Of a stretch of DNA of 43,745 nucleotides, positions 12,109-30,286 are shown in pieces. The stretch is from contig JWKY01000011.1 of assembly GCA_000806015.1 (NCBI GenBank), positions 1 through 43,745 on the forward strand, in the 5' to 3' direction. Made by a program: the position numbers and the translations under genes. Source of the stretch: an archaeon GW2011_AR19. Its GTDB lineage: Archaea; Nanobdellota; Nanobdellia; Pacearchaeales; GW2011-AR1. The stretch's first letter is position 1. Every line of letters begins with the position of its first letter. Below the pieces are notes generated by a model. It worked only from the letters and a program-made list of their open reading frames with translations. It was not told where the DNA came from and did no database searches.

Positions 12109-13125
12109 ATGGAAATTAAAAAACTAAAAGATTCTGGAAAGGATAAGTCAAACATTGCAAGAAAAAATATTTTAAGAAAAAGCAAAGAAATTAAGGGAAT
12201 TCCAATCAGAGGTTATGACTTTGATAATGGAATTAATTATGAAGAAATTATAAAAAGCTATTCTTCAACAGGAGCGCAGGCAAGCAACTTGGGAAAAGCG
12301 ATAGAAATCATAAATGAAATGATTAAAGAAAATGCCTTTATCTTTTTTGGATATACTTCAAGCATGGTAAGTTCTGGGTTGAGGGAAATTTTTAGATGGC
12401 TTGTCAAACACAAAAAAATAAATGTAATTGTCACAACCGCAGGAGGAGTTGAAGAAGACATTATCAAATGCCTGGGGGATTTTTATCTTGGAGATTTCAG
12501 GGCTTCTGGAGCAGAGCTAAGAAAAAAAGGAATAAACAGAATTGGAAATATCTATGCTGCAAACAACCGCTATATAGAGTTTGAAGAATTTTTCCAGCCG
12601 TTATTAAAAGAATTATATGATGAACAAAAACAAACAGGAAAAATAATTTCTGCTTCTGAAATAGTTTGGAAGCTTGGAGAAAAAATTAATGACGAAAAAA
12701 GCATCTGCTATTGGGCTTGGAAAAACAAAATTAAAATCTACTGCCCTGCAATTACTGACGGAGCTTTAGGAGACAATATTTATTTTTTTAAATCAAAAAA
12801 TCCGGAATTCAAAATTGATATTACAGAGGATATAGTTGAACTTAATAATTCCACAATTGGATTAAAAAAATCAGGAGTTATTTTATTGGGAATCGGAGTC
12901 ATAAAACATTCTATTTTGAATGCAAATATGTTTAGAAATGGCGCAGATTATGCAGTTTATGTTAATGAAGCAGAAGAACATAATGCAAGTGATGCAGGCG
13001 CTTTGCCGGAAGAAGCGATTTCCTGGGGGAAAATTTTACCTAAAGCAAAACATGTAAAAGTTTTTGGGGACGCGACAATTATTTTTCCTCTTATTGTGGC
13101 GAGCACTTTCGCAAGACAAAATTAA
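12109..13125 (+). CDS. dys: Deoxyhypusine synthase
   Basis: Transfers the aminobutyl group of spermidine, with NAD, to a lysine of translation factor aIF5A, the first step of hypusine formation. NAD-binding blocks are visible (FFGYTSSMVSSGLRE, VTTAGGVEEDIIKCLG), and the C-terminal active site NASDAGALPEEAISWGK places the catalytic lysine at 308. Length 338 is normal. The ATG at 12109 has a TATA-like TTTATAATG about 24 nt upstream. The attC-like site of the gene cassette begins 16 bp after its stop. Confidence 0.93.
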   Translation: MEIKKLKDSGKDKSNIARKNILRKSKEIKGIPIRGYDFDNGINYEEIIKSYSSTGAQASNLGKAIEIINEMIKENAFIFFGYTSSMVSSGLREIFRWLVKHKKINVIVTTAGGVEEDIIKCLGDFYLGDFRASGAELRKKGINRIGNIYAANNRYIEFEEFFQPLLKELYDEQKQTGKIISASEIVWKLGEKINDEKSICYWAWKNKIKIYCPAITDGALGDNIYFFKSKNPEFKIDITEDIVELNNSTIGLKKSGVILLGIGVIKHSILNANMFRNGADYAVYVNEAEEHNASDAGALPEEAISWGKILPKAKHVKVFGDATIIFPLIVASTFARQN

Positions 13126-13141
13126 AAAAATAAATAAAAAA

Positions 13142-13275
13142 GCGCCCAACAGCACATTGCCGCAAGTGGCGGTGCAGTGAGTTATTGAATCTTTGTATAT
13201 TTAATTTATTTTTGTGCTGGCGATAATTAAGTAATTTTAATTCGCCACCAGCGGCAATCTGCAAATGTTAGCAGC
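13142..13275 (+). other. attC-like integron site A
   Basis: The left end GCGCCCAAC (13142-13150, containing RYYYAAC) opens a long imperfect palindrome: ATTGCCGC and TGGCG pair with CGCCA and GCGGCAAT on the right, around a loop of roughly 70 nt. The right end is GTTAGCAGC (13267-13275). The two ends of this site do not match each other; instead each is complementary to an end of site B, which is the pattern left by integron recombination. The loop contains AATCTTTG. Confidence 0.75.
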
Positions 13276-13513
13276 AATTTTTAGGACAATGAACGGGCTT
13301 CGGACAATTCTCATTTACGGTTTGACACGACAGAAACAAATTGACTTTATCAAACGTAGGGACAATTCTTTCTGCGGGACAAATTTTTCCAAACTTTCCG
13401 ACAAACAAGTAATAGAAATTGCCCTCTCCGTTGACAGAAAACTCCAAGCCGACAGACAAGCAAAAAAATTGCCTGCTTCGTTGACAACTTTTTCAACAGC
13501 GGACAGTGACTGA
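13265..13513 (+). CDS. Possible cassette ORF, 82 aa
   Basis: An open frame starts inside the end of attC-like site A and runs 82 codons. The central part (KLSDKQVIEIALSVDRKLQ) looks helical and protein-like, but the base composition and repeated GACA words also fit a non-coding spacer. It would converge with the two minus-strand genes. I do not recognise it and treat it as doubtful; a start at the ATG at 13289 is equally possible. Confidence 0.25.
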   Translation: MLAAIFRTMNGLRTILIYGLTRQKQIDFIKRRDNSFCGTNFSKLSDKQVIEIALSVDRKLQADRQAKKLPASLTTFSTADSD

Positions 13514-13540
13514 CACAGATAAGAAAATTATTTAGAAAAA

Positions 13541-13774
13541 TTAATTTTTAGAAACGGCTTTTTTTAGTTTGAACATCAAAGGAGGAAATTCTCGTGCAGC
13601 TCTCCCTGCCAAGCTGTTTTCAAGTTCTGCTATCTCTATGAGGGCTTTATATGCTTCATTATTTTTCCCTTCAAAATAATTCATCGCTTCGTTAATATCT
13701 GTATGGATGTTTCTCCACTCAAAAGTAACTTTCTGAACTTTCTGGACAATTTTCCAATCTTTTTTATCTATCAT
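13541..13774 (-). CDS. Cassette gene, small hypothetical protein, 77 aa
   Basis: A soluble helical protein beginning MIDKKDWKIVQKVQKVTFEW. I do not recognise the family. Its ATG lies one base after the stop of the upstream cassette gene, so the two form an operon. Codon use is less A/T-biased than that of the host genes. Small unknown proteins encoded in pairs are typical cargo of gene cassettes, often defence or toxin-antitoxin functions, but nothing here identifies one. Confidence 0.6.
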   Translation of the reverse strand: MIDKKDWKIVQKVQKVTFEWRNIHTDINEAMNYFEGKNNEAYKALIEIAELENSLAGRAAREFPPLMFKLKKAVSKN

Positions 13775-13775
13775 T

Positions 13776-13991
13776 CTACCCTTTCCACTCGAAAGGGATG
13801 TGATTATTTATAAGTATTGGTTTTGAACGAACTCCTTTGTCAAAAAGTATTTCATCATTTAGATGTTCGCCAATTCTGTTATCATCATCGGTTCTAACTC
13901 TAAATAACAATTTTACTTCATCCACCTTTAGAATATCGTGGACAAATCCTGGTCCAACATTAAATTCTTTACTGAATCCTGAGTTTTTCAT
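13776..13991 (-). CDS. Cassette gene, small hypothetical protein, 71 aa
   Basis: A soluble beta-rich protein (MKNSGFSKEFNVGPGFVHDI, then DEVKLLFRVRTDDDNRIGEH). No family is recognised. It is the first gene of the cassette operon; the upstream region carries a TTG-N19-TAnnTTTG promoter of Bacteroidetes type and no Shine-Dalgarno sequence, which is also usual in that phylum. No TATA box is evident where an archaeal promoter should be, so expression in this host is uncertain. Confidence 0.6.
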   Translation of the reverse strand: MKNSGFSKEFNVGPGFVHDILKVDEVKLLFRVRTDDDNRIGEHLNDEILFDKGVRSKPILINNHIPFEWKG

Positions 13992-14042
13992 AGTTTTTTG
14001 GTTTTAAATTGTTAAAAAACTAATTGGTTAATTATCACGGCA

Positions 14043-14072
14043 CAAAAATATAGATAAAAAACCAAATGGCAA
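14043..14072 (-). promoter_or_regulatory. Bacteroidetes-type promoter of the cassette genes
   Basis: On the minus strand TTG (14070-14072) is followed after 19 nt by TATTTTTG (14043-14050), matching the TTG-N19-TAnnTTTG pattern of Bacteroidetes. The predicted transcript start lies about 45 nt before the first cassette gene. The match is by eye and short motifs can arise by chance. Confidence 0.45.
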
Positions 14073-14157
14073 TAACATTCTTGACAAAGTTATTAACGAT
14101 TAACGGAAAGTTATTAACACATTATAGCTTACTGACACGGACAAAAAGAAAAAAACT

Positions 14158-14292
14158 GCTGCTAACAAGGGCTTGCTGCAATGGCTGGTGACGAGTAAAT
14201 TTGTATCTTTGCACTGTTCAATTATTTTTGTATGTAGGACAGAGACGAGCATTTAATACGCCACTGACAGCAAGCCCCAGAACGTTGGGTGC
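14158..14292 (+). other. attC-like integron site B
   Basis: Begins GCTGCTAAC (14158-14166) and ends GTTGGGTGC (14284-14292, a full GTTRRRY core). Inside, GGGCTTGCTG pairs perfectly with CAGCAAGCCC, and TGGC with GCCA. The loop contains TATCTTTG. The ends pair with the ends of site A rather than with each other. The layout also resembles the 30136 site. Confidence 0.75.
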
Positions 14293-14414
14293 ACATTTTG
14301 ACTTTAGACAGAAAAACAAATTCCTCAAATTGCAAATTATTAACTTTTATAAGCAACCGTTATAATATTATAACAGATGTTAGGAAAAAATAACGGACAT
14401 ATATAAATTATAAA

Positions 14415-14468
14415 ATGCTAACCGAAACCCAAATCAACCAAATTAAAGAAAATCAAAGATTTTCATGA
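14415..14468 (+). other. Duplicated first codons of the DHH gene (17-codon mini-ORF)
   Basis: ATG at 14415 opens MLTETQINQIKENQRFS and stops at 14466-14468. The first 12 codons closely copy those of the real gene at 14480 (MLNEIQISQIKE), and the DNA is nearly identical over about 39 bp. It is either a decayed tandem duplication or a small upstream ORF whose stop overlaps an ATG at 14465. Confidence 0.6.
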
Positions 14469-14479
14469 ATTCGTCTAAA

Positions 14480-15529
14480 ATGTTAAACGAAATCCAGATT
14501 AGCCAAATTAAAGAACATTTAAACAACGCTCAAAATCCCCTATTCTTTTTTGATAATGACCCCGATGGATTATGCAGTTTTATTTTATTGCAAAAGTATA
14601 TCGGGAGGGGAAAAGGATTTCCGGTAAAATCTTCTCCTTTAGATAAAAATTATCTTAGAAAAATTAATGAACTTAATCCAGATTACCTTTTTATCCTGGA
14701 TGTTCCGGTGGTTTTAGAAGAATTTTTTGAAGAAATTAAAAAGATAAATCTGCCTGTTGTTTGGATTGATCATCATAATACGGAAAAGAGTAAAATCCCG
14801 GATTTTGTTAATTATTATAATCCTTTTCTTGAAAAGGATTTTCCAAGTTCCACTACTTATTTGTGTTATGAAGCAACCAAAAAGAAAGAAGATTTATGGA
14901 TTACTATTGCAGGGAGTATCTCTGATAATTTTGTCCCGGAAGTTTATGAAGAATTTAAAAAAATTTATCCAGATTTATCTCTTGATTCCTCAGACGCCTT
15001 TGAAATTTTATATAATTCCAGAATAGGGGTTATAGCGAATCTTTTAAATTGCGGTTTAAAGGATAAAACTACAAATGTCATTAAAATGATAAAATTTTTA
15101 ATGAATGTTAAAAGTCCTTACGATGTTTTAGAAAAAACTCCGAAAAATAGGGAAATGCATGAGAAGTTTGAGATTATTAATAAGAAACTTAAAAAATTTT
15201 TAGAGAGAGCGCAAGAAGAAGCAAACGCATCTGATAAATTGGTCTTTTTTGAATATGGCGGAGATACAAGTATGAGCGCAGAAATTTCTAATCGCTTAAA
15301 ATATTTTTTCCCTGGAAGAATTATTTTTGTTGCTTATGTTTCTGAAGGATTTGTTAATATTTCGGGGCGGGGAGAGAATGTTAAAAGAATTTTAGAAAAG
15401 ACTTTAAAACAAGGAAATTTTGAAAATGCCCGAGGAGGAGGCCACGAAAATGCTGTTGGAGCAAGGATTATGAAAAAAGATTTGGATGCATTTAGAGAAA
15501 AAATTAAAGAATTTGTTAATAAAGGTTAA
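14480..15529 (+). CDS. DHH-family phosphoesterase (RecJ-like)
   Basis: A metal-dependent phosphodiesterase of the DHH/DHHA1 superfamily, acting on single-stranded DNA/RNA or small nucleotides. Visible motifs are FFDNDPDGLCSFILL, the DHH box VVWIDHHNTEKS, and the C-terminal DHHA1 block RGGGHENAVGA with GGGH. It is 349 residues from the ATG at 14480; that start is preferred because the duplicated copy upstream begins with the same residues. An in-frame ATG at 14465 would add five residues. Archaeal relatives include GAN/RecJ homologues; which activity applies is not evident. Confidence 0.85.
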   Translation: MLNEIQISQIKEHLNNAQNPLFFFDNDPDGLCSFILLQKYIGRGKGFPVKSSPLDKNYLRKINELNPDYLFILDVPVVLEEFFEEIKKINLPVVWIDHHNTEKSKIPDFVNYYNPFLEKDFPSSTTYLCYEATKKKEDLWITIAGSISDNFVPEVYEEFKKIYPDLSLDSSDAFEILYNSRIGVIANLLNCGLKDKTTNVIKMIKFLMNVKSPYDVLEKTPKNREMHEKFEIINKKLKKFLERAQEEANASDKLVFFEYGGDTSMSAEISNRLKYFFPGRIIFVAYVSEGFVNISGRGENVKRILEKTLKQGNFENARGGGHENAVGARIMKKDLDAFREKIKEFVNKG

Positions 15530-29780: not shown

Positions 29781-30074
29781 TTAATTTTCAGAGCAGGGCG
29801 ATTCCTTACTTTTTTCCATTTCAATTTCTAAATGGTTTATGGGGGGGCGTCCAGATTTTAAATCTTGAGAGTATATCTTTTTAAAAGAAGAAGTTGCATA
29901 TGGAATCATCTCTTTTGCTAATTCTTTCTTTTTGGAATTTTCATCTACGGTTATAGCATAAAGATTTCCATCCACTTCTACCGAACCAAAATAATTTCCA
30001 TTCTTTTTGATTTTATCAAGATTTCCCACTTTATCAAAACAAATTCTATATTCTAAATTTTTATTTAATTCCAT
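29781..30074 (-). CDS. Small hypothetical protein beside an attC-like site, 97 aa
   Basis: A small soluble protein (MELNKNLEYRICFDKVGNLD, then NYFGSVEVDGNLYAITVDEN). I do not recognise it. The longer open frame that begins near 30251 runs through the attC-like site and is not likely real; TTTATAAAT about 25-30 nt upstream of the ATG at 30074 supports the shorter start. As in the 13268 cassette, the gene is on the minus strand with the attC-like site at its 5' side, so it may be cassette cargo, but a left boundary was not found. Confidence 0.55.
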   Translation of the reverse strand: MELNKNLEYRICFDKVGNLDKIKKNGNYFGSVEVDGNLYAITVDENSKKKELAKEMIPYATSSFKKIYSQDLKSGRPPINHLEIEMEKSKESPCSEN

Positions 30075-30135
30075 AATTAAAAAAATGAGAGATAATTTAT
30101 AAACTTTTAGGTGACAGCAAGAATTACAGAAAACA

Positions 30136-30269
30136 GTCGCCAACAAGGGCTTTAATGTAAGCGGGTTGACAAGCAAGTTTTTAGGGTTGTATATTTCATT
30201 ATCTTTGTGCTGGGCGACAGAGACGGGGTTTTTATTCCCGCACGCACGCAAACCCGCAAAACGTTATAC
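30136..30269 (+). other. attC-like integron site C
   Basis: Starts GTCGCCAACAAGGGCTT and ends GCAAAACGTTATAC. Inside, GCGGGTT pairs with AACCCGC around a loop with TATCTTTG and GTGCTGGGCGACAGAGACG, both also close to segments of sites A and B. The ends GTCGCCAAC and GTTATAC are not complementary, which in sites A and B marks a junction between different cassettes. The RYYYAAC/GTTRRRY cores are less perfect here. Confidence 0.6.
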
Positions 30270-30286
30270 TAAATAGAACAGAAAAG

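Follow-up and report, generated by a model that had tools for sequence, protein, structure and literature searches.

Positions 13142-14292 of a 43,745-nucleotide stretch of DNA from the archaeon GW2011_AR19 (contig JWKY01000011.1 of assembly GCA_000806015.1; the whole stretch is called the window here) carry a gene cassette between two attC sites, A and B. This element is very probably a one-cassette cluster of attC sites lacking an integron integrase (CALIN) in an archaeal chromosome, with attC sites and a cassette belonging to a kind of integron found widely in Bacteroidota. The window comes from a metagenome bin of 678 kb (G000), of which it is a single contig; the bin is 74.5% complete with a contamination of 0.56%, and its size and genes suggest a DPANN-like organism. 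It was compared with two genomes of the same genus (G016 and G089) and one of the same family (G007).

Structure of the two attC sites

The end arms of A and B have the form of attC arms, with an RYYYAAC-like R'' and a GTTRRRY-like R', and their complementarity runs across the neighbouring sites, as it does after an insertion. Within A and within B the arms do not pair past AAC/GTT. The left arm of A forms nine pairs with the right arm of B, including one G-T, and the left arm of B matches the right arm of A in nine of nine Watson-Crick pairs. The start of the cassette, TTAGCAGC, likewise pairs with the R'' arm GCTGCTAAC of its own attC, site B. The two sites lie on the same strand about 1 kb apart, the arrangement by which a CALIN is recognised (two or more attC sites of the same orientation within 4 kb of each other and no intI nearby). 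An earlier note on this DNA, made from the letters alone, had described the arm positions and their cross-pairing, which direct reading reproduced base for base, and a 1,017-bp cassette ending at G|TT, which the sequence also bears out. Its view that A and B are attC-like was supported by a covariance model of our own (R2; Table 1), and its reading of the exchanged arms as an integron signature gained from the same exchange in other arrays of the genus and in 76% of Bacteroidota site pairs. The inner stems of A and B, a third attC at 30135-30272 and the Bacteroidota kind of the sites and the cassette go beyond that note.

The inner stems of site A are interrupted by spacers (TTGCCGC-AA-GTGGCG on one side, CGCCAC-CA-GCGGCAA on the other), and spacers and bulges were found in the sites generally, the side of the bulge differing from site to site. 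In a scan for attC-shaped sequences B scored 40 and A 37.5, and the maximum over ten Markov shuffles of the window was 32.5. The bottom strand of site A folded better than its shuffles (z -2.05). The loop of site B contains TAtcTTTGC, which resembles the -7 element of Bacteroidota promoters; the same TAnnTTTG motif was seen in the loops of many attC sites (in the window at 14200-14216), and such sites might carry promoters.

The same attC type in Bacteroidota

When 84,980 genomes were scanned with a 25-base pattern derived from the archaeal sites, eight contigs matched, seven of which were Bacteroidetes bins. The covariance model R1, trained on 12 archaeal sites in which compensatory changes were seen at 5 of 11 pairs, found tandem sites on the same strand in those Bacteroidetes contigs, and it was positive in 175 of 295 sampled genomes of one Bacteroidota class, taken to be the GTDB class Bacteroidia. 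The attC sites of these arrays are about 138 nt long. The consensus hairpin of 40 of them has 18 pairs, all 18 with compensatory changes, and the inner stem is thus kept in structure rather than in sequence, as expected of attC. R2 was built from those 40 sites alone, with zero archaeal sequence; its training sites were gathered by R1, so that it is independent of the archaeal letters and not of the gathering search. R2 recovered sites A and B, the third site of the window and every other archaeal site. The model-based attC calls come from R1 and R2, and the evidence from arm pairing, attI and the recombinase does not depend on a covariance model. The R' arm of one site paired with the R'' arm of the next in 76% of 54 consecutive same-strand Bacteroidota pairs, as compared to 20% for the arms of one site and 15% for random pairs, pairing being counted if at least four bases matched beyond AAC/GTT. 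This is the trace expected from circular cassettes that insert at G|TT. When a 17-base attC pattern was searched for in viral contigs, the three matches lay, as far as they were read, inside unrelated genes or terminator-like sequence and formed no attC arrays.

The recombinase and putative attI of the Bacteroidota arrays

Tyrosine recombinases adjoin the starts of the Bacteroidota attC arrays. On plasmid NZ_CP041688.1 of Chryseobacterium sp. SNU WT5, for example, recombinase WP_143853951.1 is followed by four attC sites on the same strand; an IS110 element and a group II intron lie between the attC sites of this array (L257 13293-17075). A recombinase was present in 121 of the 175 attC-positive genomes and in 29 of the 120 attC-negative ones (Fisher P 2.7e-14, only a guide because the 295 genomes share ancestry), and 10 of 148 recombinase matches lay within 5 kb of an attC among those listed, where 0.4 were expected. 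Alignment of the regions upstream of the recombinase showed a block, T[TG]CG[TC][AG]TA..GAG^TT (for example TGCGTATATTTGNNGAG^TT), whose conservation ends at the G, where sequence particular to each cassette takes over. In 11 loci the block lay at a distance of 111-192 bp from the start of the recombinase, with one copy per such locus, and the sequence after it paired over 9-10 nt with the R'' of the first attC in six of seven testable loci. By position, boundary and logic the block is a putative attI, and the Bacteroidota arrays would then be complete integrons, with an integrase gene, attI and an attC array.

Like the classical IntI integrons (VchIntIA, PDB 2a3v; TIGR02249), the Bacteroidota system combines a recombinase, a candidate attI and an attC array, its cassette starts pair with their own R'', its recombination point is G|TT, and its integrase carries a C-terminal SPLD motif. 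The tyrosine recombinase catalytic domain is present (PF00589, E about 1e-40). Unlike classical IntI, however, the Bacteroidota recombinase has no counterpart of residues 206-246 of VchIntIA (about 40 residues), the IntI-specific insertion near patch III was not found in it, and it has an N-terminal extension of about 85 amino acids without a Pfam match. It matched TIGR02249 with 193-207 bits (for instance 206 of the 265 bits of the cut-off) in a split match. The best-scoring family for its core was NF040815 (XerA), with 204-215 bits, just under the cut-off of 220, so that the scores for the two families are roughly equal; the nearest structure is XerA 4a8e. NF040815, named 'site-specific tyrosine recombinase/integron integrase', is the family name borne by WP_143853951.1. 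Unlike the XerA type, the Bacteroidota recombinase falls below the family cut-off, is linked to the presumed attI and to attC arrays, and carries the N-terminal extension.

Archaeal setting of the cassette

The cassette is flanked by a deoxyhypusine synthase gene and a gene for a DHH/DHHA1 phosphoesterase-family protein. In G089 and G007 these two genes are adjacent, about 25 bp apart and without a hairpin, and the insert therefore sits in archaeal DNA, as the earlier note had supposed. That note had also taken site A for a pre-existing attC behind the deoxyhypusine synthase gene. The relatives contradict this: site A, the cassette and site B are all additions relative to them, and site A is not an ancestral attC. 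These two relatives thus have an insert-free locus, and it does not show the predicted empty site running straight from 13267 to 14285, having neither hairpin. The relatives are too diverged for a base-level reconstruction of the empty site, and the presence or absence of the hairpins is readable in them.

Further attC sites in the genus and family

Cassettes of this type were found in all three genomes of the genus examined (G000, G016 and G089), at differing loci. The third attC of the window is decayed. It lies behind an M16-like peptidase gene, with a nucleotidyltransferase-like gene on the other side of the cassette-like remnant, and in G089 the M16 gene adjoins a gene of the major facilitator superfamily with no insert. 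Blast and R1 revealed further sites behind the DNA polymerase B gene of G000 (contig C13), at two loci in G016 and at three in G089, one of which is cut by a contig end. Insert-free orthologous positions were seen for several of the archaeal loci. The arm exchange of the window recurs in other arrays of the genus: in G016:C15, a longer array that also has internal attC sites, the outer arms TAAATCTAAC and GTTAGATTTA pair over 10 bases around several genes. The outer arms vary from locus to locus, yet pair with each other in several arrays. In most archaeal arrays the first site is of a distinct type, and the elements of the genus mostly end in a hairpin on both sides, directly behind stop codons. 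Orthologous cassette genes for a protein of 252 amino acids, 75% identical, stand at different loci in G000 (C13) and G089 (C160). Over the archaeal family, R1 matched 4 of 180 genomes, namely the three genus members and one weak case among the 177 others. The weaker match, in another genus of the family (L204 363-502, G031:C53), comes from a short contig that also carries a gene for a RecQ-like helicase, and may be contamination.

In the G016:C15 array, a gene split into two open reading frames (ORFs; L030 6259-7742) encodes a CBM96 domain together with a sorting domain of type IX secretion (PF18962, E 6.6e-14), the latter a hallmark of Bacteroidota. The gene lies inside the attC-bounded array with archaeal genes on either side, and the type IX secretion system is not known from archaea. 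Four archaeal cassettes whose cargo otherwise differs share a conserved ORF at their start, encoding a small membrane protein of some 50 amino acids (MTIEISIETIIYGGT..) (L031 3354-3510, L030 4490-4338, L007 3940-4089 and L032 1090-1231). The archaeal XerA of G000 (C1, 278 amino acids) was considered as the mover of the cassettes and rejected; it has no match in G016 or G089 and therefore does not track them. Its gene adjoins one for a Zot-like ATPase (L009 2029-3890), and the locus is possibly an integrated virus or plasmid.

Mechanism and origin

The mechanism that we propose follows known integrons by analogy. The Bacteroidota system would consist of an N-terminally extended recombinase, akin to XerA and IntI and without the IntI patch, beside attI and a same-strand cassette array. 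The bottom strand of attC would fold into a hairpin, the linked recombinase would exchange one strand between G and TT, and a circular cassette would enter attI or another attC, the R' half becoming the cassette start and the arms being exchanged as a result. The archaeal genus would have acquired such cassettes, which then came to occupy a number of intergenic positions downstream of genes, some of them decaying there. The strand-exchange chemistry and the identity of the enzyme are presumed from this analogy, and we infer the direction of transfer and the route into the archaeon; a bacterial enzyme may have acted in trans, or the element may have arrived as a ready-made block. The cassette belongs to a large and apparently overlooked integron family of Bacteroidota, and genes would thus have passed between archaea and bacteria in this way.

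Several observations weigh against the proposal. No integron integrase was found in G000, G016 or G089. There was neither a Bacteroidota-type recombinase nor a classical IntI in any of the three and, in the G000 bin, no intI above the cut-off; the search for an intI gene in the rest of the assembly, which the earlier note had suggested, thus found none. The attI motif was absent from all archaeal loci examined, and a complete integron, with intI and attI beside the array, was found neither at the window nor elsewhere in the three genomes; recombination inside the archaeon therefore stays hypothetical. The proposal does not explain how a first attC that is complete, its outer arms paired, came to stand behind an archaeal gene. 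Two of the three cassette ORFs are oriented opposite to the cassette direction, the bottom strand of site B by itself gains little in folding over its shuffles (z -0.93), and 54 of the 175 attC-positive Bacteroidota genomes gave no recombinase match at E 1e-40.

The main competitor, to which we give somewhat less than an even chance, is that site A, cassette and site B were built in a Bacteroidota cell and arrived as a block through DNA uptake and illegitimate or homologous recombination, with no integron recombination in the archaeon. It bears only on the place of the event and is otherwise compatible with our explanation. The lack of an integrase in the three archaeal genomes speaks for it, as does the distinct first site of most archaeal arrays, and the absence of both hairpins in the relatives suggests that they arrived together or in quick succession. 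Against it, the orthologues of 252 amino acids at different loci of G000 and G089 point to movement after acquisition, and outer arms that are locus-specific yet mutually matching fit insertion into separate sites.

An archaeal transposable element unrelated to integrons, such as a miniature inverted-repeat element or a single-strand transposon, with the two hairpins as its ends, is very unlikely. The usual hairpin at each end of the genus elements, just past stop codons, would suit such an element, but the outer inverted arms vary between copies, the longer G016:C15 array has internal sites, no transposase was seen linked to the hairpin ends, and in Bacteroidota these sites make up arrays of several cassettes on one strand, accompanied by a putative attI and a recombinase. 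A chimeric contig or bacterial contamination has still less to commend it. A Bacteroidota-like cassette in a metagenome bin invites the suspicion, but both flanks are archaeal and syntenic with relatives, related inserts stand at different archaeal loci of three separate genomes, and the contamination of the bin is low. Weak attC-like scores do arise from AT-rich intergenic DNA, and yet chance hairpins or transcription terminators can practically be dismissed; they are refuted by R2 matches with E from 1e-19 to 1e-21, by the exchanged arms and by the homologous cassette content.

Relation to known integrons

Integrase-less integrons have been described in archaeal metagenome-assembled genomes, Nanoarchaeota included, together with attC sites shared between archaea and bacteria (Ghaly et al. 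2022, PMC9668308), as the earlier note had stated. Integrons in archaea are thus already known, and the window is a further member of the archaeal CALINs. Like them it has an attC-bounded cassette without intI and attC sites with kin in the other domain; unlike them, the arrays here stand one by one at separate places of the chromosome, and their attC type is that of Bacteroidota arrays whose recombinase lacks the patch.

Long attC sites such as those of the Vibrio cholerae repeat type share with the sites described here a length of about 120-140 nt, the R and L boxes and an extended loop; their conserved stem and loop sequence probably differ. The IntegronFinder 2.0 survey reported almost no integrons in Bacteroidetes, with one complete integron in Salinibacter (PMC9024848), and one survey of 2008 mentioned intI genes in the Bacteroidetes/Chlorobi group. 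In an open-access literature search we found no paper describing this Bacteroidota integron type, which is not proof of absence. The patch-less integron looks like a new variant because published surveys report almost none in this group, and it appears to lack a prior description. We lean, with appreciable reservation, to the broader view that Bacteroidota carry a widespread, unrecognised integron class, with attC sites of about 138 nt, an attI of its own and an N-terminally extended, patch-less XerA-like integrase, that was missed since survey models require classical features, and that a DPANN-like genus repeatedly took up and moved its cassettes. Should integrons with a different integrase be present in over half of a Bacteroidota class, then a large store of mobile genes has gone unnoticed, and the integron principle would not depend on the IntI patch. 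At the level of sequence, the archaeal cassettes would document that genes have flowed between Bacteroidota and archaea in this way, a secretion-system gene included. These claims could be tested with one recombinase and two short DNA sites.

Cassette cargo and neighbouring sequences

The small ORF at the cassette start, which probably begins at the ATG at 13289, showed 43-50% identity in tblastn (E 7e-15 to 9e-15) to Bacteroidota cassette-start ORFs (L191 5393-5620 and L192 4463-4636). These homologues, on G378:C55, each follow an attC with an R' arm identical to that of site A (GTTAGCAGC). The cassette had no blastn match in plasmids and phages, and an Rfam scan of the window from 12.0 to 15.6 kb gave nothing relevant. 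The features are collected in Table 1.

Table 1. Features of the window discussed in the text
Feature	Position	Strand	Basis
attC site A	13142-13275	+	R2, 104 bits, E 1.1e-21
Site A R'' (left arm) GCGCCCAAC	13142-13150	+	direct sequence reading
Site A R' (right arm) GTTAGCAGC	13267-13275	+	direct sequence reading
Site A stem TTGCCGC / GCGGCAA	13157-13163 / 13251-13257	+	sequence reading
Site A second stem GTGGCG / CGCCAC	13166-13171 / 13243-13248	+	sequence reading
attC site B	14158-14292	+	R2, 92.8 bits, E 4.3e-19
Site B R'' (left arm) GCTGCTAAC	14158-14166	+	direct sequence reading
Site B R' (right arm) GTTGGGTGC	14284-14292	+	direct sequence reading
Site B inner stem GGCTTGCTG / CAGCAAGCC		+	sequence reading
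Gene cassette, 1017 bp, from the TT in site A up to the G in site B	13268-14284	+	cut at G|TT
Small cassette-start ORF (82 aa in the ORF list)	13265-13513	+	tblastn homology to Bacteroidota cassette-start ORFs
77-aa ORF in cassette	13541-13774	-	sub-threshold Pfam match only
71-aa ORF in cassette	13776-13991	-	no Pfam match
Deoxyhypusine synthase, upstream archaeal flank	12109-13125	+	PF01916, E 1.7e-112
DHH/DHHA1 phosphoesterase-family protein, downstream archaeal flank	14465-15529	+	profile match and synteny
97-aa ORF in cassette-like remnant before third attC	29781-30074	-	
Third attC, decayed; R'' GTCGCCAAC, R' GTTATAC	30135-30272	+	R2, 69.8 bits, E 9.5e-14

Upstream of the DHH gene, an AT-rich palindromic stretch at 14346-14400, GTTATAATATTATAACA.ATGTTA..AAAATAAC, has counterparts of 78-90% identity in some ten further genomes of the family, mostly with different sequence after it, and may be a regulatory or mobile element that they have in common. 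The DHH gene appears to have a partly duplicated start (14411-14518); the two 43-nt copies are 84% identical and 65 bp apart, and the first of them runs into a stop.
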